Assembly: GCA_015478895.1 (NCBI GenBank)
Contig: JADMKK010000057.1
Location: forward strand, 1-64,000
DNA: 64,000 nucleotides
From: Comamonas sp.
GTDB taxonomy: Bacteria > Pseudomonadota > Gammaproteobacteria > Burkholderiales > Burkholderiaceae_C
Direction: 5' to 3'
This document shows, in pieces, positions 15,291-51,125 of the stretch. Under the pieces are notes generated by a model that saw nothing but the letters and a program-made list of their open reading frames with translations, did not search any database and was not told the DNA's origin. The position numbers were made by a program, and so were the translations under genes. Numbering within the stretch: position 1 is the first letter of the stretch; every line of letters starts with the position of its first letter.

Positions 15291-16661
15291 TTAAGCGTAG
15301 ACATCCAAGGCTCGCGCTGAACCCCTTGACTGTCCACCAGCTCCAGGAACGGCGACTTGCGCATGTTGCACGCCGCTTTGCTGCGCTGCACCATTATCGC
15401 CTTGTTGCGCCTGCTGATGAGGGCCCTGCTGACTTTCCTGTTCTTGGGCTTGCACCGAGACGCCCAAGAGTTCAACGCCTTGCTGCGCTAACATTTCCCG
15501 CAATTGTGCCAAGCTAGCGTCCAGCATGTCTCTGGTCTGCTGTTGCTGACTGTGGAAGGTGACATGTGCCTCGTTACCATTCACCGCGACCCGTACGCGC
15601 ACAGCTTGACCATCTCGATCCAGCGTCAACTCCGCACGCTGCTGCTTGCCTTGCAGCCAAAAGCGCATATCTTCAACGGGAGCTTCCTGTTCCGCTTCAA
15701 AAGCAGTGGTTTGCGATTGTTGCGTCTCACGGACGGCATTTTCGGTCAGCCGCATGCCACTACCTTGGCCATTGGCCAACCATGACGCACTGTCCGCGAA
15801 AGACTTGCTGCTTTCTGCGCGTTCGACGGCTTTTGGCAGCGCCCCAGCACCCGCTACCGCCCATTGCTCAATCTGCCCCATCAAACGCTGCAGCATCGCA
15901 GTGGGTGGAGTTTGCGGATCTTCCAGCTTCCACGCGCCTTGCAAGGCAAAGCGTCCTTCACTGGAAGCCTCTTTGCCCTGCATTTCAGGAGCCATTTGCC
16001 CCACGGCATCTGCCACGTCACCCGCTTGTGCCATCACGGCTGCAGCCATCGCTGCCGGCTCATTGCTGGAGAAAAAAGCCTTGGCCGTGTCGACCGGCTG
16101 CTGCACTCCAGCTGCCACTGTGGCGATGGCTTGGCCTGCTGCAATATGCGGCTGCGCTCCGATAGCAGCATGTAATGCCGTTGCTGCAGCGCCCTCAGCG
16201 CCTTGCTGGCTCCAAACAAAAGAGCCATCGCGCAGTGCGGTATCGCTGCGCTGGTCTAAAAGCAGTGTCTGGGCCAGCAAGCTATCTAGATCCTGCGATG
16301 AGGCCTCATCTCTTTCGGGAGAAACTTCAAAGTTCGAAACCTGACCCAACAAACTTTCCAGATCCAAAAACTCAGCCTGCTGGTCTGAACTGATCAAAGC
16401 TGCATCCGGTAAAGGAACACTGACCAGCTCTAGCGCGCCGTCTTGCGGCTGAATTCCTTGCAATAACTTCGAAAAATCCGGCGAGAGAACATCTACTAGC
16501 TCTAGTGCGCTGTCTTGTGCCTGGGCACCTTGCAGTAACTTTGAAAAGGCAGCGCCTTGAATGTGCGCGTTGCCCTCTGTGTTCTTGTCTGCAGCAGGAC
16601 TGTTTTTCTCTGACGCTGAGTTCTTGACAGGTATTGGAGTTATGCCTGGCGTGATGTCCAT
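15291..16661 (-). CDS. fliK: Flagellar hook-length control protein FliK
   Basis: Secreted molecular ruler (456 aa) that stops hook growth and switches export specificity. The first 330 or so residues are low-complexity (Ala, Gln, Ser, Asp) with an imperfect internal duplication near the N-terminus (FSKLLQGAQAQDSALELVDV and FSKLLQGIQPQDGALELVSV). The C-terminal Flg_hook domain includes RAELTLDRDGQAVRVRVAVN and LREMLAQQGVELLGVSV. The start at 16661 is set by AGGAGA seven bases upstream. It follows fliJ with a one-base gap. A gap of 202 bases separates it from fliL. Confidence 0.9.
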   Translation of the reverse strand: MDITPGITPIPVKNSASEKNSPAADKNTEGNAHIQGAAFSKLLQGAQAQDSALELVDVLSPDFSKLLQGIQPQDGALELVSVPLPDAALISSDQQAEFLDLESLLGQVSNFEVSPERDEASSQDLDSLLAQTLLLDQRSDTALRDGSFVWSQQGAEGAAATALHAAIGAQPHIAAGQAIATVAAGVQQPVDTAKAFFSSNEPAAMAAAVMAQAGDVADAVGQMAPEMQGKEASSEGRFALQGAWKLEDPQTPPTAMLQRLMGQIEQWAVAGAGALPKAVERAESSKSFADSASWLANGQGSGMRLTENAVRETQQSQTTAFEAEQEAPVEDMRFWLQGKQQRAELTLDRDGQAVRVRVAVNGNEAHVTFHSQQQQTRDMLDASLAQLREMLAQQGVELLGVSVQAQEQESQQGPHQQAQQGDNGAAQQSGVQHAQVAVPGAGGQSRGSARALDVYA

Positions 16662-16662
16662 G

Positions 16663-17127
16663 TCAGATCTCCTGAAATTGCATGCCGAAAGTTCGGCCAA
16701 TGAACTGCAGCGCAGCCCGTTCATCGGTTTGCTTTTGATCGCGGCGCATTTGCGTCAAAGCGATGTCTCGGCGGCGTGCTTCCACCACTTTGTTAAGGCT
16801 ACTCAAGCGCAACTCCGTAGCCATCAACGCTTTTTGCGCAGTTTCCAAACGGATGGATTGATCCGCCACCACCTTCGTTTGCAAATTCACCGCATGCTGC
16901 AAACGTTCCATGAACTGGCGGTGGTGAAACATGACTTCTGGTTTCATGGCAGCCCCTTCCGAGGCACCCCAGCGCTGTTGCATCTCCAGGGAATAGCTCT
17001 CCAGCTGTTCTATCTGGGACTTGGCAGCATCAAAGGCATGCTGACGCTCACGCAACATTTGGCGTGCTTCATCGCGCTTGCGTGCAGCCATTTCGATTGC
17101 GATCATCAAAGCGTTGAGTGACGACAT
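16663..17127 (-). CDS. fliJ: Flagellar export protein FliJ
   Basis: Cytoplasmic coiled-coil protein (154 aa) that sits in the centre of the FliI hexamer and helps couple export to the proton motive force. Almost the whole chain is charged helix; the family-typical pattern (MMIAIEMAARKRDEARQML-like opening, then QQRWGASEGAAM and VEARRRDIALTQMRRDQKQ) is present. It lies 23 bases after fliI. FliJ sequences diverge quickly, so position supports the call. Confidence 0.9.
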   Translation of the reverse strand: MSSLNALMIAIEMAARKRDEARQMLRERQHAFDAAKSQIEQLESYSLEMQQRWGASEGAAMKPEVMFHHRQFMERLQHAVNLQTKVVADQSIRLETAQKALMATELRLSSLNKVVEARRRDIALTQMRRDQKQTDERAALQFIGRTFGMQFQEI

Positions 17128-25611: not shown

Positions 25612-26811
25612 TTAACGCAGCAAACTCAATACACTTTGTGGCAACTGGTTAGCCTGCGCCACCATCGCGGTCCCTGCTTGTTGCAAGATTTGCGTGCGGC
25701 TGAGGTTGGCAGTTTCCTTGGCGAAGTCGGCATCAATGATGCGACCACGGGCAGCGGTAATGTTCTCACTCTGTATGTCGATGTTTTCGACCGTCTTTTC
25801 AAAGCGGGTCTGCATGGCACCCAGCTCACCGCGTGCGCTGTTGACCTTGTCGATAGCGTTGTCGATGCGCTGCAGGGCTTCCCATGCGCCAGCCTGGGTA
25901 TCAATGTTCACTTCGTGGATACCAACGGCCTGTGTTTCAGCAACCGTAGTAGTACTCACACTGAAGGCATCGCCAAAACCGACACCACCCGACACAGACA
26001 CTGTCGCAACGGCCGAAGTCGCGGTGCTGTTGGCAGCCGTGTTGCGGTAGCTGATGGTGTAATCGTCGCCATCTTTTTCCAGGAAAGCCGTCAGACCCGT
26101 ATCAGCGGTCTTGCTATTGATGGCTTCCATCACTTTACCCAGCGCTTCTTCGTTGGTGCGCTTGGCATCAGCAGCCACAGTCACTTTGGCAGACACGCCG
26201 TTGGCACCTGTTACGGTCACAGTGATGGCGCTGGTGCCGGCCAGACCAGTCACAGCTGTGCCAGCCATGGTGGCGCTGGTCGTACCGAAGGTGGAATTAC
26301 CCAGCTTGTCCACCTTGGTGTTGGCCAAAGCACCCACGGTGATGTTGTCACCAGAGTTGGCACCCACTTGGAACACCGCACCGGTAAAGCTGCCGTCCAG
26401 CAACTTGGCACCGTTGAAGCTGGTGGTTTTAGCCACACGGTCCACTTCGTCGCGCAATTGCTTCAGTTCAGACTGCAGGGCTTCACGGTCGCTCTTGCTG
26501 TTGGTCGCATTGCCAGACTGCACAGACAGTTCGCGCATACGTTGCAGCATGTCGCCCACCTTGCCCAGCGCGCCTTCAGCGGTTTGCGCCAGCGAAATGC
26601 CGTCATTGGCATTGCGCGAAGCGACCGCCAAGCCACGCACTTGCGTATTCATACGCTCAGCGATGGCCAAGCCGGCAGCATCATCCTTGGCACTGTTCAC
26701 ACGCAAGCCCGAAGACAGACGCTGCATCGAAGTTGCCAGCGAACCGCCCGACAAGCCCAGATTGCGCTGGGCGTTGATGGACACCGCGTTGGTGTTAATT
26801 GACATACCCAT
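25612..26811 (-). CDS. fliC: Flagellin (first minus-strand copy)
   Basis: Filament subunit (399 aa). Conserved D0/D1 ends are intact: [20 protein letters not shown] and [20 protein letters not shown] at the N-terminus, and [20 protein letters not shown] with a C-terminal [13 protein letters not shown]. The central variable part (about 170-310) is rich in Thr, Ser and Ala, suitable for O-glycosylation by the enzymes downstream. It is a near-duplicate of the flagellin at 27003-28202, sharing a 114-bp identical tract. Unlike that gene it has no recognisable sigma-28 promoter in its 191-bp upstream gap, so it may be read through from the copy upstream. Start ATG 26811 has GGGG seven bases upstream. 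Confidence 0.95.
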
Positions 26812-27002: not shown

Positions 27003-28202
27003 TTACTGCAGCAGGCTCAGCACTTGCTGCGGCAGTTGATTGGCCTGGGCCACCATCGCAGTGCCTGCTTGTTGCAGAATCTGTGTGCGGCTCAGGTTGG
27101 CTGTTTCCTTGGCAAAGTCAGCATCTACGATGCGACCGCGGGCTGCCGTGATGTTTTCGTTTTGAATATCAATGTTTTCGATCGACTTTTCAAAACGTGT
27201 CTGCATGGCACCCAGCTCGGCGCGGGCAGAGCTGACCTTGTCCAAGGCGTTGTCGATGCGCTGCAGCGCTTCCCATGCACCCGCTTGGGTGTCAATGTTC
27301 ACTTCATGGATACCGATCGACTTCGACTCTTCCACGGTGACGGTATCGCCAGAGAAATGGGTGCCGAAGTCAACACCAGTCACACTCACGTTCGCCACGG
27401 CGGAAGTTGCAGTGCTGTTGGCAGCCGTATTGCGGTAGCTGATGGTGAAGGTATCGCCATCTTTTTCCAGGAAAGCAGTCAGACCCGTATCTGCAGTCTT
27501 GCTGTTGATGGCTTCCATCACTTTACCCAGCGCTTCTTCGTTGGTGCGCTTGGCATCAGCAGCCACAGTCACTTTGGCAGACACGCCGTTGGCACCTGTT
27601 ACGGTCACAGTGATGGCGTTAGTGCCGGCCAGACCTGTCACATCGCCACTGGTCATGCTAGTGATATTGGTCGTACCGAAAGTAGAGCTACCCAGCTTGT
27701 CCACTTTGGTGTTGGCCAAAGCACCCACGGTGATGTTGTCACCCGCATTGGCACCCACTTGGAACACGCCACCGGTAAAGCTGCCATCCAGCAACTTTGC
27801 ACCATTGAAAGTGGTGGTCTTGGCGACGCGGTCGACTTCGTCGCGCAGTTGCTTCAATTCAGCTTGCAGGGCTTCACGGTCAGACTTGCTGTTGGTGGCG
27901 TTGCCAGACTGCACAGACAGTTCACGCATGCGCTGCAGCATGTCGCCCACCTTGCCCAGTGCACCTTCAGCAGTCTGCGCCAGAGAGATACCGTCGTTGG
28001 CATTGCGAGAGGCTACTGTCAAACCACGCATTTGAGTGCTCATACGCTCGGCAATCGCCAAGCCTGCGGCGTCGTCCTTGGCGCTGTTGACGCGCAAACC
28101 AGAAGACAGACGCTGCATCGACGTGGCCAAAGAACCACCCGACAGACTCAGGTTGCGCTGAGCATTGATGGACACTGCGTTGGTGTTGATAGACATACCC
28201 AT
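27003..28202 (-). CDS. fliC: Flagellin (second minus-strand copy)
   Basis: Filament subunit (399 aa), same length as its neighbour and nearly identical at both ends ([21 protein letters not shown]-terminal [13 protein letters not shown]). Differences cluster in two short parts of the central domain (about 192-205 and 280-300), while the stretch between is identical at the DNA level over 114 bp. It is preceded by the clearest sigma-28 promoter of the flagellin group (28315-28341), so it is probably the main expressed copy. Start ATG 28202 has AAGGA upstream; a second in-frame ATG follows two codons later. Confidence 0.95.
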
Positions 28203-28595: not shown

Positions 28596-29888
28596 ATGGC
28601 TGCAACTATCAACACGAACATCGCCTCAATCAATGCGCAGCGCAACCTGTCTTTGTCTGGTGCATCGCTGAATACCACCATGCAGCGCCTGTCGTCTGGC
28701 CTGCGCGTCAACAGCGCCAAGGACGACGCCGCAGGCTTGGCCATTTCTGAGCGCATGAACACCCAGGTCAAAGGCCTGACGGTAGCGTCTCGCAATGCCA
28801 ATGACGGCATCTCGCTGGCGCAGACCGCTGAAGGTGCACTGGGCAAGGTGGGTGACATGCTGCAACGCATGCGCGAACTGGCCGTGCAAGCAGGCAACGC
28901 CACCAACAGCGCCAGTGACCGCAAGGCACTGCAGGCCGAAGTCAGCCAGTTGAGCGCCGAAATCGACCGCGTGTCCAAGCAAACCAACTTCAATGGCACC
29001 AAAATTTTGGACGGCAGCTTTGCAGGTGCGGTGTTCCAAGTGGGTGCCAACTCTGGCGACAACATCACCCTAGGTGGTCTGGCGGATACACGCTCTTCGC
29101 AACTGTCCACGATCTCTTATGCCGACAAAGGTATTGATCCTCTTGTCGCGGTCGATACCAGCATTGATGCCACCACCGGCGGCGCCAATGCGATCACGGA
29201 TTTCCGCCTCGGCATTGACGCTGGCACCTTGGATATCCAAATTGACGGCAACGACCAAACAGGTACAGCCCTGCCCGCCATCAACATTGATTTGGGCAAG
29301 ATCGAGCCTGCAGAAAGCCCGCAGCAGCGCCTGGGCCAGATCATGGACGCCATCAACAAAAAGTCGACCGACACGGGCGTGACTGCATACCTGAACAAGG
29401 TAGAAGGCACAGACACTTACAACCTTGAACTCATGTCCAGCAAGCTGGATGGTGAAGGCAACCCCGTCTCCGTCACCTTCAACGGCTTTACAGAAGCACT
29501 GACTGGCAAGGACGCTGCTGATATCAACATCACCGGCGGCGCTGGCGGTGCAGATTCCAAAGAAAATCAAAAGGGCATTGAAGACATCGATGTCAGCACC
29601 CAGTCCGGTGCATGGGTGGCCCTGAAGAAGATTGACAGTGCTGTAGACCAAGTCAACAGCGCGCGCGCCACACTGGGTGCGGTGCAGGCCCGCTTTGAAA
29701 ACACCGTCAACAACATCGACATTCAGGTGGAAAACCTGTCTGCCGCCCGCGGCCGCATCATTGATGCCGACTTTGCTCAGGAAACTGCCAACCTGAGCCG
29801 CACGCAAATCTTGCAACAAGCGGGTACGGCGATGGTCGCTCAAGCTAATCAGATTCCTCAAAACGTCCTGCAGTTGCTGCAAGGCTAA
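28596..29888 (+). CDS. Flagellin (third copy, divergent and longer)
   Basis: Flagellin of 430 aa on the opposite strand. The ends are conserved ([41 protein letters not shown]-terminal ANQIPQNVLQLLQG), but the central domain (about 165-335) is unrelated in detail to the other two: acidic, with VDTSIDATTGGANAITDFRL and a Gly-rich TGGAGGADSKENQKG stretch. AAGGA lies before the ATG. It may form a minor or segment-specific part of the filament. It ends at repeat R4. Confidence 0.94.
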   Translation: MAATINTNIASINAQRNLSLSGASLNTTMQRLSSGLRVNSAKDDAAGLAISERMNTQVKGLTVASRNANDGISLAQTAEGALGKVGDMLQRMRELAVQAGNATNSASDRKALQAEVSQLSAEIDRVSKQTNFNGTKILDGSFAGAVFQVGANSGDNITLGGLADTRSSQLSTISYADKGIDPLVAVDTSIDATTGGANAITDFRLGIDAGTLDIQIDGNDQTGTALPAINIDLGKIEPAESPQQRLGQIMDAINKKSTDTGVTAYLNKVEGTDTYNLELMSSKLDGEGNPVSVTFNGFTEALTGKDAADINITGGAGGADSKENQKGIEDIDVSTQSGAWVALKKIDSAVDQVNSARATLGAVQARFENTVNNIDIQVENLSAARGRIIDADFAQETANLSRTQILQQAGTAMVAQANQIPQNVLQLLQG

Positions 29889-30057: not shown

Positions 30058-30084
30058 TAAATTGTTACAAGATTATGCCGAAAG
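30058..30084 (+). promoter_or_regulatory. Sigma-28 promoter for the octapeptide-repeat gene
   Basis: TAAA (30058-30061), 15 bases, GCCGAAAG (30077-30084). The -35, the spacer length and the GCCGA core match the FliA consensus; two bases at the end of the -10 differ. It lies 122 bases before the ATG at 30206, the same distance seen for motA and the second flagellin. The remainder of 29889-30205 holds repeat R4 and the leader. Confidence 0.7.
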
Positions 30085-30205
30085 CGATGCAAGCCTTGGA
30101 TTGTGGGACTGCTTTGCCTACTACCTTTTTGTCGCGCCCAGGGTTGTGTTGAGTTGTTGTCATTCACCGATCTTCAGATCATTCAAGCAAAAAACGGAGC
30201 ACCTT

Positions 30206-33200
30206 ATGTCCATCATCAGCGGCATGTCGCCAACGCAGATCGCGCAGCTATCCACAACGCAAATCGCAGACTTGAAGGCCTCGGACTTCAAGGCCATGAA
30301 GGCCGATCAGCTTGGCGCACTCACCAAAGACCAGATCGGCGCCATCGAAACCCGTGACCTTGTCACCCTGAGTGCCAAAGCTATCGCCGCACTCAAAGCT
30401 GATGAACTGGCTGAAGGCCTCACCGCAGGCCAGATTGGCGCTCTAACAGCCACCCAGCTCAAGGGACTGACCAACGGCCAGATGGAAAAACTGGGCAGCG
30501 ATTTCGTCAAGGAACTGAGCGCCTCCCAGGTCAAGGCCATGACCCCAACGCAGCTGAACCAGTTGACTGCCGCCCAAGTGACCGCTTTGGGCGACAAAAT
30601 TCAACACTGGTCTGCTGCACAACTCAAGGCGCTGGACGACACCAAGCTGGCCGCACTGGATGGTGACCAAGTCAAGGTATTGACCGGCACCCACCTCAAA
30701 GCACTGACACCAGACCAGATCAGCAAGCTGGACAAGACTGCCTTCGCCGAAGTCGACAGCACAGCCCTCAAAGCATTAAGCGCCAAGCAAGTCGGCGCGC
30801 TGACCAATGACCAGATAGAAGCGGTCGGTGCAAAAATTGCGGATCTGTCGGCCGTCCAAGTCAAGGGATTGACCGCTGCGCAAATGACAGGCTTGAAGGC
30901 CGACTCTATCCAGGCACTGACTGCAGACCAGCTCAAGGTGTTGTCTGCCGCCCAAGTCAATGCGATTGACGATGCCGTGTTCGACAAATTAAACGCCGAC
31001 ACCATCGCGGGCTTGACGACCGCGCAAATCCAAGGCTTGTCCGTAGACAAGGTGGAAAAGCTGACCACAGATCAGGTCGAGAAACTCAGCGCCGCCCAAC
31101 TCAAAATTTTCAGCGAAGACCAAATCAAGGCCTTGGGCGACAAGATTGCCAATATTGGCGATAACGTCAAAGTACTTTCGACCAAGCAAATCCAAAGCTT
31201 GGAAACCGCTCAGATTCAAAAACTGAGCACCGACCAAGTCGGAGCACTGACCGCAGCACAGGTTAAAGGCCTGAAGCCCGATCAGTTGAAAGAGTTCACC
31301 AACGATCAGCTGGGCGCGCTCAAAGGCAAGGAACATATCGCGAATCTGTCTGCTGCACAGCTCAACAGCCTGACAGAAGCCCAAGTTCAAGCACTGGACG
31401 TGGAAGGCGTGGCCTTCATTGCTGTGGCCACGCTCAAAGGCATGGACGCTGCGCAGTTCAAGAACCTGTCAGAAGGCCAGGTCGAGAAACTGACCGCCAA
31501 CCAGCTCAAGGCACTGACCACCACCCAGATCGCCGCAATTGACGATACCGACTTTGCCAAGATTGATGGTGAAAAGCTCAAGGTACTGAGCAGCGCGCAA
31601 GTTGGTGCGCTGACGGCAGATCAGGTCAGCAAGATCAGCGATGACAATATTGCCTTGCTGGGCGCCACACAGCTCAAGGGTTTGGGCCAAACGCAGATTG
31701 CGGCATTGACCGAAGCGCAAGTGACAGCTCTGACAGACAAGCAGGTCAAGTTGCTGTCGGCAGCACAGCTCAACCACATGTCAGATACCCAGATCGCAGC
31801 ACTGGACGTGGGCGATGTCGGCGGTATGACGTCAGCACAGCTCAAGGGCCTTGGTGATGACCAGCTCAAGGCGATGACAAAAGACCAGATCACAGGCCTG
31901 AGTGCTGCGCAGCTCAAGGTACTGACACCTGATCAAATCTCCAAAATCGACGCTACTTATATTGCCGACATTGCGGTGGATAAGTTCAAGGCGCTGTCTG
32001 GCGCACAAATCGCCAAGCTGACGGACGACCAGGTCGAGGCACTGACCGCCGGTCAACTGGAAAGCATGAGCGCTACGCAGCTCAAGGGCTTGCAAGGCAC
32101 CCAGATCAAACTGCTGGATGACACCCAGCTCGGGGCCATCACAGGCAAACAATTAGCCAGCTTCAGCGCTGACCAGATCAAGGCACTGGAAACCACGCAA
32201 GTTGCCAAGCTCGACACGGATCAACTTCAAGCCCTTACGGCCAAGCAAGTTCAGGCCCTGACCCAGACCCAAATCCAAGCCTTGGAACAAACCCAGATTC
32301 AAGATTTGACCAAGGGCCAAGCCAAAGCACTGACCGCCGCTCAGGTCGGCTGGCTGAGCGATGAACAGGCAAGCTGGTTGGAAGTCGAAGATCTGCAGCA
32401 GCTGAATGCCACACAGATAAAGGAACTCAACGTCTCCAAACTGACGGAAGACCAAGTCAAGGCGATGAAGTACACCCAAGTCGCCGCACTGTCCGAAACC
32501 CAGATCGACACACTGGAGAACGACGCGCTTGGCGCTATGGGCGCAGAACAGGTCAAGGGATTGAGCACTGCGCAACTGACCAAGCTGGGCACCAAGGTTG
32601 AGCACATTGACGCAGACGCTTTGAGCCAGCTCACCACCCAACAGATCAAGGCGCTGACACCTGAAGGCGTGGAAGCCCTGACATCGGACCAGTTTGCCAA
32701 ATTGGGCAAGGCACAAGTCTCTGCGCTGCTGAACGACCAGGTCGCCAAAATCACCACAGCCAATTTCACAGCGCTGGACGATACCCAACTGGCCGCCCTG
32801 ACAGCCACCCAAATGGGCGCTGTCACCAAGGAGCAGATCGGGGCACTGGATGACACCCAGTTCGGCAAGCTCACCGCCGCACAAATGGGTGGCCTGGACA
32901 AATCGGTCATCAGTGGTTTGAGCGATGACAAAGTTGCGGCCCTGAGCGCTACTGCCATCAAGGGCTGGGGCACCGACCACTTCGCAGAGTTGACGGACAC
33001 GCAAACCAAGAAATTGGATACCGCCGTGCTGCAATCGCTGTCGAAAACACAGTTGGACGGCCTCAACGTTAAAGACATGGAAAATCCCCAGCTGCAAGCC
33101 CTGCAAGCCAAACAGATCGCAGGCATTGACGCTGCCAAGTTCAAAGAACTGAGCAAAGACCAGTTGGCTGTACTGAGCTACACGCAAGTGCAGGCACTGA

Positions 33201-33274
33201 CCCAAGACCAGCTTGATGCACTTGACCCCGACCAGTTCCAGGCGTTGAACTTGAAAGACCCTGCGGAGGTCTAA
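30206..33274 (+). CDS. Large octapeptide-repeat protein of unknown function
   Basis: A 1022-aa protein I do not recognise as a named family. From residue 8 to the end it is built of about 125 eight-residue units with consensus [ST]-x-x-Q-[VIL]-x-x-L, for example TAAQVKGL, TPDQISKL and TNDQLGAL. Shorter seven-residue units (GDKIANI, GAKIADL) and Asp-Phe units (DDTDFAKI, DKTAFAEV) recur at wider spacing. The S/T-x-x-Q pattern resembles a helix N-cap, so each unit may be one helical turn in a long solenoid. No cysteine, no signal peptide and no membrane helix are seen. ATG 30206 has GGAG six bases upstream; the longer reading from 30062 would run through the promoter. The sigma-28 promoter and position beside flagellins suggest a late flagellar or motility-linked product, perhaps secreted through the flagellar exporter. 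Confidence 0.9.
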   Translation: MSIISGMSPTQIAQLSTTQIADLKASDFKAMKADQLGALTKDQIGAIETRDLVTLSAKAIAALKADELAEGLTAGQIGALTATQLKGLTNGQMEKLGSDFVKELSASQVKAMTPTQLNQLTAAQVTALGDKIQHWSAAQLKALDDTKLAALDGDQVKVLTGTHLKALTPDQISKLDKTAFAEVDSTALKALSAKQVGALTNDQIEAVGAKIADLSAVQVKGLTAAQMTGLKADSIQALTADQLKVLSAAQVNAIDDAVFDKLNADTIAGLTTAQIQGLSVDKVEKLTTDQVEKLSAAQLKIFSEDQIKALGDKIANIGDNVKVLSTKQIQSLETAQIQKLSTDQVGALTAAQVKGLKPDQLKEFTNDQLGALKGKEHIANLSAAQLNSLTEAQVQALDVEGVAFIAVATLKGMDAAQFKNLSEGQVEKLTANQLKALTTTQIAAIDDTDFAKIDGEKLKVLSSAQVGALTADQVSKISDDNIALLGATQLKGLGQTQIAALTEAQVTALTDKQVKLLSAAQLNHMSDTQIAALDVGDVGGMTSAQLKGLGDDQLKAMTKDQITGLSAAQLKVLTPDQISKIDATYIADIAVDKFKALSGAQIAKLTDDQVEALTAGQLESMSATQLKGLQGTQIKLLDDTQLGAITGKQLASFSADQIKALETTQVAKLDTDQLQALTAKQVQALTQTQIQALEQTQIQDLTKGQAKALTAAQVGWLSDEQASWLEVEDLQQLNATQIKELNVSKLTEDQVKAMKYTQVAALSETQIDTLENDALGAMGAEQVKGLSTAQLTKLGTKVEHIDADALSQLTTQQIKALTPEGVEALTSDQFAKLGKAQVSALLNDQVAKITTANFTALDDTQLAALTATQMGAVTKEQIGALDDTQFGKLTAAQMGGLDKSVISGLSDDKVAALSATAIKGWGTDHFAELTDTQTKKLDTAVLQSLSKTQLDGLNVKDMENPQLQALQAKQIAGIDAAKFKELSKDQLAVLSYTQVQALTQDQLDALDPDQFQALNLKDPAEV

Positions 33275-33631: not shown

Positions 33632-34747
33632 ATGGCTGCAGAAAAAATCTACGTCACCCAACCTTACCTGCCGCCCCTGGAAACGTTCACGCCTTATCTG
33701 GAGCAAATCTGGGCCAACAAGATACTGACCAACGGTGGCCCTTTTCACCAGCAATTGGAAAAAGCGCTGTGCGACTACCTCGGTGTCCAGCACGTGGCAC
33801 TTTTCAGCAATGGCACCTTGGCACTGATCACTGCCCTGCAAGCCTTGCGCGTAACGGGAGAAGTGATTACCACCCCCTACTCCTTCGTTGCTACCGCTCA
33901 CGCATTGCTGTGGCAAAACTGTAAGCCCGTGTTTGTCGATGTGGAACCACACACCCTCAACCTGGATCCCGCAAAGATCGAAGCGGCGATTACCCCACAG
34001 ACCACTGCCATCTTGCCTGTGCATTGCTATGGCAATCCCTGCGATACCGACGCCATTCAAAAAATTGCCGACAACTACAACCTGCGCGTCATTTATGACG
34101 CAGCACATGCTTTTGGCGTAGAAGATGCAGGCGGCAGCGTTTTGCGCCACGGTGATTTAGCCGTCTTGAGTTTTCACGCAACCAAGGTTTTCAACACCTT
34201 TGAAGGCGGTGCCATCATTTGCCCAGATGCAAAAACCAAGCAGCGCATCAATCATCTGAAAAATTTCGGCTTCGTCAATGAAACCACGGTAGTAGCCCCG
34301 GGCATCAATGCCAAGATGAGTGAAATCAATGCGGCCTTTGGTCTATTACAGTTGCAGCACATGCCTCAAGTCATGCAGCGCCGGGCAGAAATAGATGCTT
34401 ACTACCGTAAGCAACTCAGTGACGTGGCCGGTATTACGTGCCTACCTCAAGGAACACAAACCAAGGCAAATCACTCCTATTTCCCCATACTTGTCAGCCC
34501 CGAGTACCCATTAAGTCGTGATGCGCTGTATGAGAAATTCAAAAAAAACGAAATCTACACACGACGGTACTTTTACCCCCTGATTACCGACTTCCCCATG
34601 TATCGAGGCTTGCCCTCTGCCTTGCCCGCGAATGTCGTAGAGGCTGGCCACGCGGCATCACAGGTACTGTGCCTGCCCATTTACCCCGCACTGACAGACA
34701 CACAACAGGAGCGTGTTATTTCGGTGATATTGGAGTTGCTCGCATGA
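33632..34747 (+). CDS. DegT/DnrJ/EryC1-family sugar aminotransferase
   Basis: PLP-dependent nucleotide-sugar transaminase (371 aa). Clear family features: LFSNGTLALITALQALRV, the glycine-free turn VITTPYSFVATAHAL, the PLP-contacting aspartate in IYDAAHAFGV, and the catalytic lysine in LSFHATKVFNTFEGGAI. The overall sequence resembles VioA/FdtB-type enzymes that make 4-amino or 3-amino dideoxy sugars; the exact substrate cannot be assigned. Its stop overlaps the start of the WbqC-like gene (ATGA), so the two are coupled. It probably supplies an amino sugar for flagellin or surface glycan. Confidence 0.9.
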   Translation: MAAEKIYVTQPYLPPLETFTPYLEQIWANKILTNGGPFHQQLEKALCDYLGVQHVALFSNGTLALITALQALRVTGEVITTPYSFVATAHALLWQNCKPVFVDVEPHTLNLDPAKIEAAITPQTTAILPVHCYGNPCDTDAIQKIADNYNLRVIYDAAHAFGVEDAGGSVLRHGDLAVLSFHATKVFNTFEGGAIICPDAKTKQRINHLKNFGFVNETTVVAPGINAKMSEINAAFGLLQLQHMPQVMQRRAEIDAYYRKQLSDVAGITCLPQGTQTKANHSYFPILVSPEYPLSRDALYEKFKKNEIYTRRYFYPLITDFPMYRGLPSALPANVVEAGHAASQVLCLPIYPALTDTQQERVISVILELLA

Positions 34748-35436
34748 GGGGGGCCATCATGCAGCCGTATTTCTTCCCTTATATCGGCTATTACCAGTTA
34801 GCTTACGCAGCAGAGAAGTTTATTTTTCTAGACGATGTCAACTACATCAAAAAGGGATACATCAATAGAAATTCAATACTTTTAAATGGAAATAAATTTG
34901 ATTTTTCAGTTCCAGTAGAAAAAATCAGTCAGAATCGAAAAATTAATGAGCACAACTATATAAATAATTTTTCTGATTTCTTGCTACTTATTGAGAATGC
35001 ATATAAAAAAATGCCTCAATTCAATCAGGTAATGCCATTGATTGAAGAAATTGTGTTTGATGAAAATTTAAATGTCGCACAAAAAAACTCCAGAAGTTTG
35101 AGTGCTGTATTTAGATATTTAGACCTTCATCGCGAATTTATTTTCTCATCTGATATTGACCAAGCACACAAAGACAAAGGTCAGACCAGAATTCTTACGC
35201 TTTGCAAAAAAACCAATATCGATCAATATCGAAATGCTATTGGAGGTCAGTCCCTTTACGATGCAAAAGCATTTGAGAATGAAAATATAGAATTGAAATT
35301 CACGAAAAGCAACACATCGAAGTACGATCAGGGTTCACAAGAATTCATCGGCAATCTATCCATCATCGATGTTTTGATGCACTGTGAAAAGAGCACAGTA
35401 ATAAAACTTTTTGAAGACTATACTTTAATAAATTAA
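34744..35436 (+). CDS. WbqC-like family protein
   Basis: A 230-aa protein with the WbqC signature at the N-terminus (MQPYFFPYIGYYQLAYAAEK, FLDDVNYIKKGYINRN) and a late GGQSLYDAKAF segment. WbqC-like proteins occur in O-antigen and flagellin glycan loci and are thought to act in sugar modification, often beside VioA/DegT-type transaminases; their biochemistry is unclear. ATG 34744 overlaps the aminotransferase stop by four bases. The gene is much richer in A+T (Lys, Asn, Ile codons) than the flagellar genes, which suggests acquisition by transfer. Confidence 0.85.
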   Translation: MRGAIMQPYFFPYIGYYQLAYAAEKFIFLDDVNYIKKGYINRNSILLNGNKFDFSVPVEKISQNRKINEHNYINNFSDFLLLIENAYKKMPQFNQVMPLIEEIVFDENLNVAQKNSRSLSAVFRYLDLHREFIFSSDIDQAHKDKGQTRILTLCKKTNIDQYRNAIGGQSLYDAKAFENENIELKFTKSNTSKYDQGSQEFIGNLSIIDVLMHCEKSTVIKLFEDYTLIN

Positions 35437-37135: not shown

Positions 37136-39985
37136 TCATCGGTTAAGAATAGATTCTGGGCAGGTCAATCCAATATCTTCATACTTCACCTGAAAACTCT
37201 TGGGCTTCTTACCCATACACCAGCGTATCCACATTTGGCGCATAGCAAGAATAGTGCTCTGAACGACTGCAGCAGGTTCTGCCATTTGATCTTGTGAGAA
37301 ATAAACAGATTGCAACTCTCTGCGCACCTTGTTCAAGGTTTGTGGTTGGGTCGCCCACACACGAGCTAAATCGACAAGCTCTGGCACACTGCGGGCCACG
37401 CACATGCTTTCGATTCCAACGCTATGCAAAATAGCAGAAGACTGACGACCTGGATAAGTATCACCAGCAATCGTCAAGGTGGGCACCCCCATCCATAAAG
37501 CATGAAGGGTGGTAGTACCGCCGGTATACGGAAAGGTATCGAGGCAAAGATCAACCTGTGCGTGCAGTTTGAGATAATCAGACAAGCTTGTCCGAGGGAA
37601 GAACATCACACGCTCGCTTGCGATTCCTTCGTTTTTAAACCATTCAGCCACCTCTGACGGCACCCCGTTTGCAGGCATTGCACCCATAATTAATCGAGAA
37701 TCTGGAAGCGCTTTTAGCAGCTGACACCAAGATACGACCACTTCATGGCTAATTTTATTTAAACGATTGAATGAACCAAAAGTTAAGTAACCATTTTTGA
37801 GGAATGGTGCATCTCCGGTATCAACTTTCTCGTCCGATTCTTTAAATGAAAAACTGGATGGAAGCAGAGCAAGCTTTTCTGTGAATTGGCTTTGAAGATC
37901 AACTTTACCTTCTGGCTTTAAATAAAGAGCATTCACAAGTTTGTAATCCATCCCTTTCAGCCCCGTTGTACCTGGGTATCCAAGCCAAGTTACTTGCACA
38001 GGTGCTGGATGGCGAGCAAACACTGATAAGCGATTTCCTGCTGTATGCCCACTGACATCGACAAGAATATCAATCCCATCTTCTCTAATTTTTTCTACCA
38101 AACGGTCATCTGACCATTTCACTACCGAACGCCATACATTAATATTCTTTTCAATTTGCAGCGTTGCGCCGTCACGTGCCCCGTGATTCACATAAGCATA
38201 GGAGATTATTTCGCTATGCTCTGCCAAGGATTGAAAAAATGGAATAACAAATTGCGCGACAGCATGGTTACGGAAGTCAGCAGAGACAAAACCGACTTTC
38301 AATGCTCTTTCAGGTATTCGGGTATTGTTGTATCTTGAAAATTGTCGACCCTTGACGCCCTCTTCGATTAAGCGTCCATACAGTCTATGCTCACGATAAA
38401 GCTCTTCCGGCGTTATTTTTGTACTGTGACTGAGAGCAAAAAGCAAACAACTGCGTGCAAAATCAAAATCAGGATCGACCGCTAATGCTTGGCGAAAACA
38501 AGCAATCGCATCGTCAATACGGCTAAGCGCCAGATTGATGACGCCTAGATTGGTATGCAATTGAGGAACATTTGGCAATACGGCAATACTGGATTTGACT
38601 TCCTCCATCGCCACAGATGGCTCTTCCGTACTGTTAAGGGCCGCACTGAGCATGATGTGTGCAGGAACAAAATCCGGCTTGATCTTGATGGCACGGCGCA
38701 ACCAGTCTACCGCTTCGTTTTCGCGCTTTTGATGGACCAGATTGCGGCCGACCTCAAACAAAGTTTCCGGGCTGCCATTGTCAATTTCTGTGCATCGCAA
38801 AAGCCCTGCTTCAGCTTCAGCAAATCGCCCATGAAATTCTAAAAGATGGCACAAATTACGCAATGCTGGGGTGTAGCCAGGATGGATTTTTAATGCGCTC
38901 CGGAACGCATTTTCTGCAGCGGCCAATCGATCTTGATTGCGCAGGGTAATACCATAGGCATCTAGCAATTCCGGCACATTCGGGCTGGCTTCTACAGCTA
39001 ATTTAAAACACACAAGTGCGCCGTCTTGATCGCCTTCACTGCGCAACAAAGAACCAAATTTTTCCAAAAGCATCGGACTCAGTCCTTCGCTCCGTAATGC
39101 CCAAGCGTAGCTGTGCAGCGCTTTTTCCGCTTTACCTTGCTTTTGATAGATCAATCCCATTTTGCCGAGCGCTTGGGCATTGCTGGGATATATGCGCAGC
39201 ATGCCTTGTAATACCGTTTCCGCTTCATCCAAACGATTCAAATCAAGCAATGCATCGGCCAATGCAATGTGGTTTGCCACACTTGTGGGTTGCAATATGG
39301 CAACTTGACGACGCGCCTCCAGTGCTTTTTCAAGGAATCCTTGCCGTTTTTCCGTTTCAGCCAACATCGTCCAAACGACGACAGCTTGCGGAAAGCGCTG
39401 AAGCATCGCGGTAATGGCATTAAGAGTTGGTTCGTATTTTTTTTGATTGAAAACACTCAACAGCTGCTGCAAATCCTGCATGCTGGGATCCGCCCCCCTC
39501 ATAGTTTGCGCTTCTAACGGCTGAGGTTCTGGCAAGGGGGGGGCATCGGTCAATACAGCATCCACCAAATCAGCAATAGTGGTGCGTTCCAATCGAATAT
39601 CACGTGTGAATGAGGCAATTTGCAAATCATTCAAGCCATAGTTGCTGGCAAGAATCAATACATGCTCGGCCACATCCAGAGCACCCGCCTTAATAAGTGA
39701 ATCCAGATAGCTGAACCAGAATTGCAATCTAGTGGGGTCAAGGTTAAGAGCCGCTTCAAAATACGGGAGAGCCTCTGCTGGCTCAAGCAGCTGCACCGAA
39801 AACAGGACGCCAAGGTTGTGCAGAGCATCAGCATCATCGGGACATTCTTTTAGCAGCGAAAAGTATTGTGACTTGGCTTCTTCAAAACGCCATTGCTGCT
39901 GCAGGCTTATAGCGTATTCCAGTTTATCTTCTGGAATGGAAGAACTTTTATTGTCTAAAACGACGTTTTGATCATTAGTTTTCAT
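37136..39985 (-). CDS. TPR-containing O-GlcNAc-transferase-like glycosyltransferase (GT41)
   Basis: A 949-aa cytoplasmic protein with about 13 tetratricopeptide repeats (residues 20-540; e.g. DADALHNLGVLFSV, NAQALGKMGLIYQKQGKAEK, QLHTNLGVINLALSRIDDAI) and a C-terminal GT41 catalytic domain (from about 560). Catalytic-domain landmarks are VGFVSADFRNHAVAQFV, DILVDVSGHTAGNRL, VTWLGYPGTTGLKGMDY, LTFGSFNRLNKI and LDTFPYTGGTTTLHALWMGV followed by GRQSSAILHSVGI. Bacterial members near flagellin genes are known or proposed to glycosylate flagellin Ser/Thr. It heads the leftward three-gene unit. Alternative: a lipid- or polysaccharide-directed transferase. Confidence 0.9.
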   Translation of the reverse strand: MKTNDQNVVLDNKSSSIPEDKLEYAISLQQQWRFEEAKSQYFSLLKECPDDADALHNLGVLFSVQLLEPAEALPYFEAALNLDPTRLQFWFSYLDSLIKAGALDVAEHVLILASNYGLNDLQIASFTRDIRLERTTIADLVDAVLTDAPPLPEPQPLEAQTMRGADPSMQDLQQLLSVFNQKKYEPTLNAITAMLQRFPQAVVVWTMLAETEKRQGFLEKALEARRQVAILQPTSVANHIALADALLDLNRLDEAETVLQGMLRIYPSNAQALGKMGLIYQKQGKAEKALHSYAWALRSEGLSPMLLEKFGSLLRSEGDQDGALVCFKLAVEASPNVPELLDAYGITLRNQDRLAAAENAFRSALKIHPGYTPALRNLCHLLEFHGRFAEAEAGLLRCTEIDNGSPETLFEVGRNLVHQKRENEAVDWLRRAIKIKPDFVPAHIMLSAALNSTEEPSVAMEEVKSSIAVLPNVPQLHTNLGVINLALSRIDDAIACFRQALAVDPDFDFARSCLLFALSHSTKITPEELYREHRLYGRLIEEGVKGRQFSRYNNTRIPERALKVGFVSADFRNHAVAQFVIPFFQSLAEHSEIISYAYVNHGARDGATLQIEKNINVWRSVVKWSDDRLVEKIREDGIDILVDVSGHTAGNRLSVFARHPAPVQVTWLGYPGTTGLKGMDYKLVNALYLKPEGKVDLQSQFTEKLALLPSSFSFKESDEKVDTGDAPFLKNGYLTFGSFNRLNKISHEVVVSWCQLLKALPDSRLIMGAMPANGVPSEVAEWFKNEGIASERVMFFPRTSLSDYLKLHAQVDLCLDTFPYTGGTTTLHALWMGVPTLTIAGDTYPGRQSSAILHSVGIESMCVARSVPELVDLARVWATQPQTLNKVRRELQSVYFSQDQMAEPAAVVQSTILAMRQMWIRWCMGKKPKSFQVKYEDIGLTCPESILNR

Positions 39986-50801: not shown

Positions 50802-51125
50802 TTAGTAAGCGGTGGTGAGCAGCTCGGCTGCATCAAACAGCATCTTGTCGGCAACCGCGCTGGCGTTCACCGAAAAAGTGCCGTTGGCAATGGCCGCGCG
50901 CATGGCGTTGACCTTGGCCATATCCATGTCTGCTGAGGCTTTCGCGTTTTGATCCAGGGAGCGCACGGAGTTAGAGACAGTCACGGGGACGCCTGCCGCA
51001 TTCGTGCGGCTTTGTTGCACAGCTTCGCCCGCCGTCCCATTTTTGGTCTGGTGCGCTTGCTGTGTCGAGTTCTGCTGCAACTTGGCTGCCAGCATTTCAA
51101 CGTTTGTGTTCTGTCCGACCTTCAT
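50802..51125 (-). CDS. flgM: Anti-sigma-28 factor FlgM
   Basis: Exported inhibitor of FliA (107 aa). The C-terminal sigma-binding region is recognisable: DMAKVNAMRAAIANGTFSVN followed by ASAVADKMLFDAAELL. The N-terminal half is disordered (Gln, Asn, Thr rich), as in the family. It is preceded by a near-perfect sigma-28 promoter (51168-51194), giving the known feedback in which FliA raises its own inhibitor. Confidence 0.94.
   Translation of the reverse strand: MKVGQNTNVEMLAAKLQQNSTQQAHQTKNGTAGEAVQQSRTNAAGVPVTVSNSVRSLDQNAKASADMDMAKVNAMRAAIANGTFSVNASAVADKMLFDAAELLTTAY

Follow-up and report, generated by a model that had tools for sequence, protein, structure and literature searches.

Among described systems, the closest counterparts of the locus reported here are a flagellar enzyme of Caulobacter and an adhesin of Vibrio cholerae. 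The Caulobacter enzyme, FlmG, combines a tetratricopeptide repeat (TPR) domain with a glycosyltransferase and, according to PMC7591256, binds flagellins via its TPR domain and belongs to cytoplasmic O-glycosylation. FrhA of V. cholerae is a large secreted RTX adhesin under flagellar regulation. In this study, we analysed a stretch of 64,000 nucleotides from Comamonas sp. (positions 1 to 64,000 of contig JADMKK010000057.1, assembly GCA_015478895.1), hereafter the window, in which a gene for a 1022-residue repeat protein lies among flagellar genes. The protein is a member of a named repeat family, ALTTAQ (Pfam PF20080), which is undescribed in the literature as far as we searched, with no paper found on its function, regulation or partners. 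The family combines an eight-residue repeat of predicted solenoid fold, sigma-28-like boxes upstream of its genes, co-occurrence with flagellins and with family 41 glycosyltransferases (GT41), and avoidance of cysteine. We give roughly even odds (probability about 0.5) to the reading that these proteins are exported solenoid rods of the motility phase, timed by sigma-28 and often O-glycosylated, of which export, its route, glycosylation and role are what we infer.

The repeat gene and the box upstream of it lie at these positions:

30206..33274, plus strand: ALTTAQ-repeat (PF20080) solenoid protein of 1022 residues, starting at ATG 30206 (Pfam E 2.5e-118; AlphaFold2 model)
30058..30084, plus strand: sigma-28 (FliA)-like box TAAA-N15-GCCGAAAG, matching 10 of 12 letters and ending 121 bases before ATG 30206

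The initial annotation had drawn one feature from 30058 to 33274, of which the end stands, position 30058 being the start of the promoter box and 30206 that of the open reading frame (ORF). Its description of the product as a repeat protein was confirmed by periodicity, motif counts and Pfam alike. Self-identity of the protein is 0.247 at a lag of eight residues versus 0.05–0.09 at lags 2–7 and 9–15, the strict motif [ST]xxQ[VIL]xxL occurs 44 times (mean 0.6 and maximum 4 in 300 shuffled sequences), and a loose form of it occurs 119 times (shuffle mean 47.7), with 110 in-phase loose units spanning 869 of the 1022 residues; the lag-8 identity and the shuffled-sequence counts exclude a chance repeat. 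The figure of about 125 units proposed earlier holds as a geometric count (1022/8 = 128), because only 44 units fit the strict motif. PF20080 extends across the entire protein in 34 stretches and scores 385.9 bits in the Pfam search, far above the curated cut-off of 26.4, although the unit of the Pfam model is a 38-residue stretch. Cysteine is absent from the protein, and no 19-residue stretch exceeds 1.35 on the Kyte-Doolittle scale, in keeping with the earlier remarks that cysteine and membrane helices are lacking. This is the only ALTTAQ gene found in the organism's genome, and its product ends in a non-repeat tail of less than 25 residues, short of the at least 100 residues seen in the giant class described below. 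Several other assignments were rejected. A tandem array at the DNA level was excluded, the sole array being weak (24 bp, 2.3 copies), and tblastn against a phage collection of 50,697 records gave no match that would speak for phage origin. CAAP1 (64.3 bits) and EF-hand_11 (23.7 bits) scored above their cut-offs with no single stretch passing and were ascribed to repeat composition, as were further, weaker Pfam matches. Pfam matched no Flagellin_N/C, FlgK, FlgL or FliD domain in the protein at E-values up to 1, nor the Flg_hook domain of FliK rulers.

An AlphaFold2 model of the window protein, built from two sequences, reached a mean predicted local distance difference test score (pLDDT) of 86.7 and a predicted template modelling score (pTM) of 0.40, and contains 119 helices of at least four residues, mostly one of 4–6 residues per eight-residue unit; its overall course is unsure because of the pTM value. 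A relative from Nitrosomonas europaea, modelled from its single sequence, gave the same pattern (pLDDT 84.9, pTM 0.63), and the earlier guess of a solenoid agrees with these models. The 50 Foldseek matches shown per model were mostly generic helical solenoids with TM-scores up to ~0.2. The mesothelin fold (8cx3, 7ued, 8fsl), also made of stacked short helices, matched the N. europaea model with a Foldseek probability of 1.00, but with target TM-scores of merely 0.30–0.36 and 13–16% identity, and we regard this resemblance as an analogy at most. A sequence search of the Protein Data Bank (PDB) matched 9zem (HeliScrew4) at E 1.4e-13 over 108 residues; this 120-residue chain of LTPEQIAAL-type units, compared by name and sequence only, appears to be an idealised design. 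It did not appear in the 50 Foldseek hits displayed for each of the two models, and a literature search for 'HeliScrew' found no paper. The other PDB sequence matches were leucine-rich repeat (LRR) proteins at E 8e-5 or weaker. LRR membership was rejected, the models being all helix without strands and the LRR_EndoS match falling under its cut-off, as was HEAT membership (Pfam, models, Foldseek).

The sigma-28 consensus is TMAA-N15-GCCGATAW, and boxes were scored by its 12 letters within 250 bp upstream. In the window, the box of the repeat gene has counterparts ahead of motA (TCAA-N15-GCCGATAG, ending 126 bases before ATG 40567, a start of our choice, as the longest ORF starts at TTG 40534, 93 bases from the box) and, on the minus strand, 112 bases ahead of the fliC2 ATG (TAAA-N15-CCCGATAA). 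The box reported earlier is thus real, and its distance, first put at 122 bases and equal for all three genes, is 121 and not identical among them. No such box was found upstream of the other two flagellin genes of the window. Both strands of the window hold 10 boxes of at least 10/12 letters with a 15-base spacer against 2.8 expected, which makes a box in the ~320 bp gap a roughly 0.7% event on one strand. Judged by sequence, the box of the window gene alone would count as moderate evidence for membership of the sigma-28 regulon, and the evidence would be strong across the family. Boxes of at least 10/12 stand upstream of 42 of 96 ALTTAQ genes, and of at least 11/12 upstream of 18, versus 3 and 0 on the reverse strand of the same upstreams; 3% and 0.3% of shuffled upstreams reach these thresholds, as do 5 and 0 of 462 ORFs, in any frame, in a small control of 20 random regions. 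When near-identical upstreams were collapsed (95 genes, the window's included), spacer 15 gave 42 genes versus 2–13 for the other spacers from 9 to 22, and at the threshold of at least 11/12 it gave 18 versus 0–5. An unscored G follows directly after TMAA in 30 of the 42 box-bearing genes and matches the TAAAGTTT -35 element. Grouped by context, with many loci cut by contig ends, boxes precede 8 of the 28 genes that have flagellar neighbours, 12 of the 26 that have GT41 alone beside them and 22 of the 41 that have neither; since they are common even without flagellar neighbours, sigma-28 control seems to be a feature of the ALTTAQ family rather than of flagellar location. The proposal of an undescribed, sigma-28-linked late motility protein is hence supported, as FliA-like boxes recur ahead of relatives and no description was found.

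Relatives were detected by the P0001 search in 96 of 399 genomes of the taxonomic family and in 21 of 299 genomes (5 of 153 genera) of a phylum sample, and a profile of five compact N-termini recovered 12 of 399 order genomes at E 1e-12. A further set of loci, hereafter named loci, was fetched via one short motif of the compact N-terminus and is therefore not a random sample; 76 of its 140 members encode a relative, from taxa including Thauera, Tepidimonas, Nitrosomonas, Limnohabitans, Duganella, Sphaerotilus, Pseudomonas, Shinella and Riflebacteria. Two classes were distinguished, one with repeats running to the protein end, from 261 residues (L144) to more than 2000 (L123, L146, L163), and one of giants, with open frames up to 6705 residues, many of which carry a C-terminal tail. 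Among 121 ORFs, some incomplete, 56 have a tail of at least 100 residues and 20 end in PLI. Flagellin was present in 94 of the 96 family genomes with ALTTAQ versus 221 of the 303 without (p 3e-9), a test that, like the one for GT41 below, ignores shared ancestry and in which the 94 (there, the 93) was counted by eye from lists; the two ALTTAQ genomes without flagellin, G100 and G107, are 86% and 90% complete.

GT41 follows a similar pattern, being found in 93 of the 96 family genomes with ALTTAQ versus 148 of 303 without (p 2e-20; the three lacking it are G076, G139 and G334) and in all 33 chosen ALTTAQ genomes. Near the genes themselves (tblastn from window proteins, 1e-10), it occurred in 35 of 71 named loci, in 4 of 19 from the family, 6 of 12 from the order and 2 of 4 from the genus, and in 0 of 20 random regions. 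The GT41 cluster is present in 52 of 109 locus pieces, a set with four duplicates and one continuation piece. Of 54 GT41 ORFs that share a piece with an ALTTAQ partner, 32 follow it on the same strand, and for 28 of them the distance is 41–218 bp (one pair is a duplicate). Typing succeeded for 51 of 55 GT41 ORFs, with 48 OGT-type and 3 SPINDLY-type (the window's, that of G039, a genome of the same genus, and narrowly L147); the references were the enzymes of L132 and of the window, so that the window and G039 assignments hold by construction, and independent support comes from the PDB search, where the window GT41 (37136-39985) best matched 7y4i (E 1e-88) and came out as SPINDLY-type rather than OGT-type. 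The window enzyme may modify flagellins. FlmG acts on flagellins, whereas the family-linked GT41 are mostly OGT-type and often stand beside the ALTTAQ gene, the window enzyme being SPINDLY-like in a comparison that did not include the FlmG sequence.

Repeat position 2 differs between these groups. Serine or threonine occupies it in 17% of units in the window protein and 22% in that of G039, below any of the 51 ORFs whose locus contains an OGT (duplicates included; mean 83%, minimum 54%), and in fractions of 0.06 and 0.08 in the two genes of G107. No clear OGT-type GT41 was found in the genomes of the window, G039 and G107, and the GT41 of G107 is only slightly closer to the SPINDLY reference (188 vs 166 bits). 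Exceptions are L078 of G114 (0.20, with an OGT elsewhere in the genome); G334 (1.0) and G076 (0.58), where no GT41 was found and the genes are cut at contig ends; L116 of G635 (1.0, also cut, with weak GT41 matches only); and the genes of G025 (0.29, 0.39, 0.48), of which the 0.29 gene (L034) has an OGT adjacent and lies outside the 51-ORF set. Intermediate values were seen in G103 (0.50, cut) and G433 (0.47), and no ORF of G139 passed the filter for this count. The tracking of position-2 Ser/Thr loss with OGT absence is suggestive only. In G433 (L275), the OGT-type GT41 seems broken in two pieces, and the ALTTAQ protein has the lower value given. G025, a bin of the same genus (85% complete, 5% contaminated), holds three diverged ALTTAQ ORFs (L033, L034, L035) with other N-termini, one of which adjoins an OGT-type GT41. 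The glycosylation suggested in the initial annotation thus gains ground for the family, where an adjacent OGT-type GT41 is common, and is weaker for the window member, because its GT41 is SPINDLY-type, on the opposite strand and 3.9 kb away, and Ser/Thr is conserved at 58% only. As a tentative extension, which we think has less than an even chance of being right, a large group of bacterial OGT-type GT41 would have their dedicated natural substrates in the ALTTAQ proteins, which would be switched on by sigma-28, glycosylated mainly at position 2 and exported as rods forming a coat or matrix of swimming cells, the Comamonas member being an offshoot that has no OGT and has lost most acceptors.

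Cysteine is nearly absent from the family: the repeat cores of the 121 ORFs hold 11 in 212,420 residues, which is similar to flagellins of the same loci (8e-5) and unlike GT41 (1.4%), and this near-absence fits proteins that leave the cell. The median isoelectric point is 4.2. With the ABC, HlyD and OEP genes of L071 as seeds, ORF clusters were found in 13, 8 and 5 of the 109 locus pieces, respectively, with identities checked on L071 only and an ABC cluster that may include other ABC proteins; such genes lie near some giant relatives.

The repeat gene sits in a 64-kb flagellar superlocus that includes fliA and flgM of its own. Searches identified FliP, FliM, FliK, FliI, FliH, FliG, FliF, FliS, FliD, flagellins, a DegT aminotransferase, WbqC, TPR-GT41, MotA, MotB, CheY-like, CheZ, FlhB, FlhA, FlgA, FlgE and FlgK, with FliA and FlgM coming from a separate search; by position or from general knowledge, FlgB-D, FlgF-J, FlgL and FlhF are presumably encoded as well. 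The features relevant here are:

287-2257, strand not specified: ABC protein, soluble-type (family search)
15291-16724, strand not specified: FliK (family search)
25612..26811, minus strand: flagellin FliC1 (family search)
27003..28202, minus strand: flagellin FliC2 (family search; FliA-like box 11/12)
28596..29888, plus strand: flagellin FliC3, on the same strand as the repeat gene and immediately before it (translation; Flagellin_N match 28608-29021)
33632..34747, plus strand: DegT-family sugar aminotransferase downstream of the repeat gene, an order kept in G039 (family search)
34669..35436, plus strand: WbqC-like protein of the glycan island (family search)
37136..39985, minus strand: TPR-GT41 glycosyltransferase, SPINDLY-type; no second GT41 gene was found in this genome
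49409..50176, plus strand: sigma-28 factor FliA (family search)
50802..51125, minus strand: anti-sigma factor FlgM (family search)

The placement between flagellins and glycan genes was correctly seen from the start, and the same arrangement recurs in G039 (contig L130, a metagenome-assembled genome of an uncultured Comamonas sp.), where three flagellins, DegT, GT41 and FliA keep the order of the window. The orthologue there is 57% identical and also 1022 residues long, with four small indels at equal length. Codon comparison gave dN 0.35 and dS 3.6 (saturated) by NG86, and dN 0.40 and dS 1.16 by YN00, and the resulting dN/dS of about 0.1–0.35 indicates purifying selection on the pair. Conservation between the two orthologues is highest at hydrophobic positions (95%), followed by Gln (83%) and Leu (82%), with Ser/Thr well below at 58%.

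According to the reading we favor, a solenoid of ~120 short helices stacked every eight residues would be produced late in flagellar gene expression, during the sigma-28 phase, and then exported, so that only motile cells would carry or shed the rod. Before export, a cytoplasmic OGT-type GT41, often co-made in the family, would add sugars to the many Ser/Thr of the rod. Giant relatives would exit by type I secretion through the C-terminal tail, whereas compact rods, the window's included, would take a different path, most probably through the flagellar export gate. During swimming, the rod would mediate contact with surfaces or with the surroundings, by adhesion, lubrication or filament coating. 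The window member is compact, without a dedicated OGT and without the tail of the giants. Several observations weigh against this reading. Within the genus, PF20080 is present in 3 of 53 genomes, and in genus-mates G047, G051 and G052 flagellin is present and ALTTAQ was not found, so flagella do not need an ALTTAQ protein. Flagellar neighbours (tblastn from window proteins, 1e-10) were detected in 21 of 71 named, 2 of 19 family, 1 of 12 order and 1 of 4 genus loci; against 2 of 20 random regions, the family and order figures amount to no enrichment. The initial annotation took homologs mostly far from flagellar genes as a sign against its proposal, and this applies in part: the family and order loci have flagellar neighbours no more often than random regions, but the named loci, chosen by the compact N-terminal motif, have them in 21 of 71 cases. 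The co-occurrence tests share the weakness of common ancestry noted above, and duplication of a Cys-free unit could partly explain the low cysteine content. In the window organism's genome no OGT-type GT41 was found, nor one adjoining the repeat gene; a scan of 30 window proteins showed no ABC-HlyD-OEP genes for type I secretion; the window protein has no export signal that we could identify, no signal-peptide predictor having been run; and no recognisable box lies upstream of the G039 orthologue, which may be transcribed together with the upstream flagellin.

Some of the same evidence would also suit a structural part of the flagellum, exported through the type III gate and attached to the filament, either along it or at its end, as a sheath-like or hook-filament associated component: the gene directly follows a flagellin and carries a sigma-28-like box, its family's cysteine use resembles that of flagellins, and compact relatives stand beside flagellar genes in Limnohabitans, Nitrosomonas and G575, a genome of another family. 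We nevertheless hold this possibility doubtful, as many relatives' loci show no flagellar gene in the piece read, the long non-repeat tail occurs instead in 56 of the 121 ORFs, ALTTAQ was not found in 50 of the 53 genus genomes, and length varies widely. Cysteine avoidance over 212,420 residues and the type I secretion neighbours of some giants point outward, and GT41 often accompanies ALTTAQ genes where no flagellar gene is seen, all of which makes it rather unlikely that the protein stays inside as a scaffold or chaperone presenting substrates such as flagellins to the GT41 TPR domain or to the export gate, even with no secretion signal identified, GT41 and flagellin genes nearby and, in the TPR domain of FlmG, a precedent for flagellin binding (PMC7591256).

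An ordinary relative of giant adhesins whose flagellar location is incidental appears a little less likely still. Giant ALTTAQ proteins do resemble type I secreted proteins, FrhA offers a flagellar-regulated example similar to that class, and in the family and order samples ALTTAQ loci show no excess of flagellar neighbours, but the gene order is shared with G039, sigma-28-like boxes recur across the family, and the window protein, unlike FrhA, lacks a tail, with no type I genes seen in the scan of 30 window proteins. The repeats and domains of FrhA reportedly differ from ALTTAQ. A molecular ruler for hook or filament length, as the initial annotation had entertained, is very improbable; regular repeats and two Comamonas proteins of exactly 1022 residues would fit it, whereas a separate FliK is present and relatives with repeats to the end span 261 to more than 2000 residues. 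The earlier interpretation therefore survives in part, with the late sigma-28 solenoid upheld, the ruler dropped and glycosylation weakened for the window member.

If the exported-rod reading is true, a large export-type solenoid would be switched on along with the flagella in bacteria from several families and no fewer than two phyla (Comamonas, Thauera, Tepidimonas, Nitrosomonas, Limnohabitans, Duganella, Riflebacteria and others), the sigma-28 regulon would gain a class of giant proteins, and many bacterial OGT homologues would gain a candidate substrate that can be checked by mass spectrometry. The predicted fold, with one very short helix per eight residues, would be relevant for protein design.

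Further observations were made across the relatives. On Riflebacteria/Ozemobacter contigs (L134, L135, L138, L139, L141, L149, L163, L175), N-termini are 43–58% identical to compact beta-proteobacterial ones, which suggests transfer from phylum to phylum. A compact relative of Tepidimonas sediminis (L082 9179-11512, the same as L133) contains large near-identical internal copies and is a recent expansion, in contrast to the Comamonas pair with its fixed length. ALTTAQ proteins matched 57 plasmid records (17 Rhizobium, 13 Shinella, 11 Cereibacter); among the 20 matches listed, 8 are labeled 'hypothetical protein' and 2 are called 'heme utilization protein', but we saw no support for the latter name. 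In Caulobacter vibrioides, one of 14 control genomes, ALTTAQ and GT41 are both present, and this species would be a tractable laboratory host.

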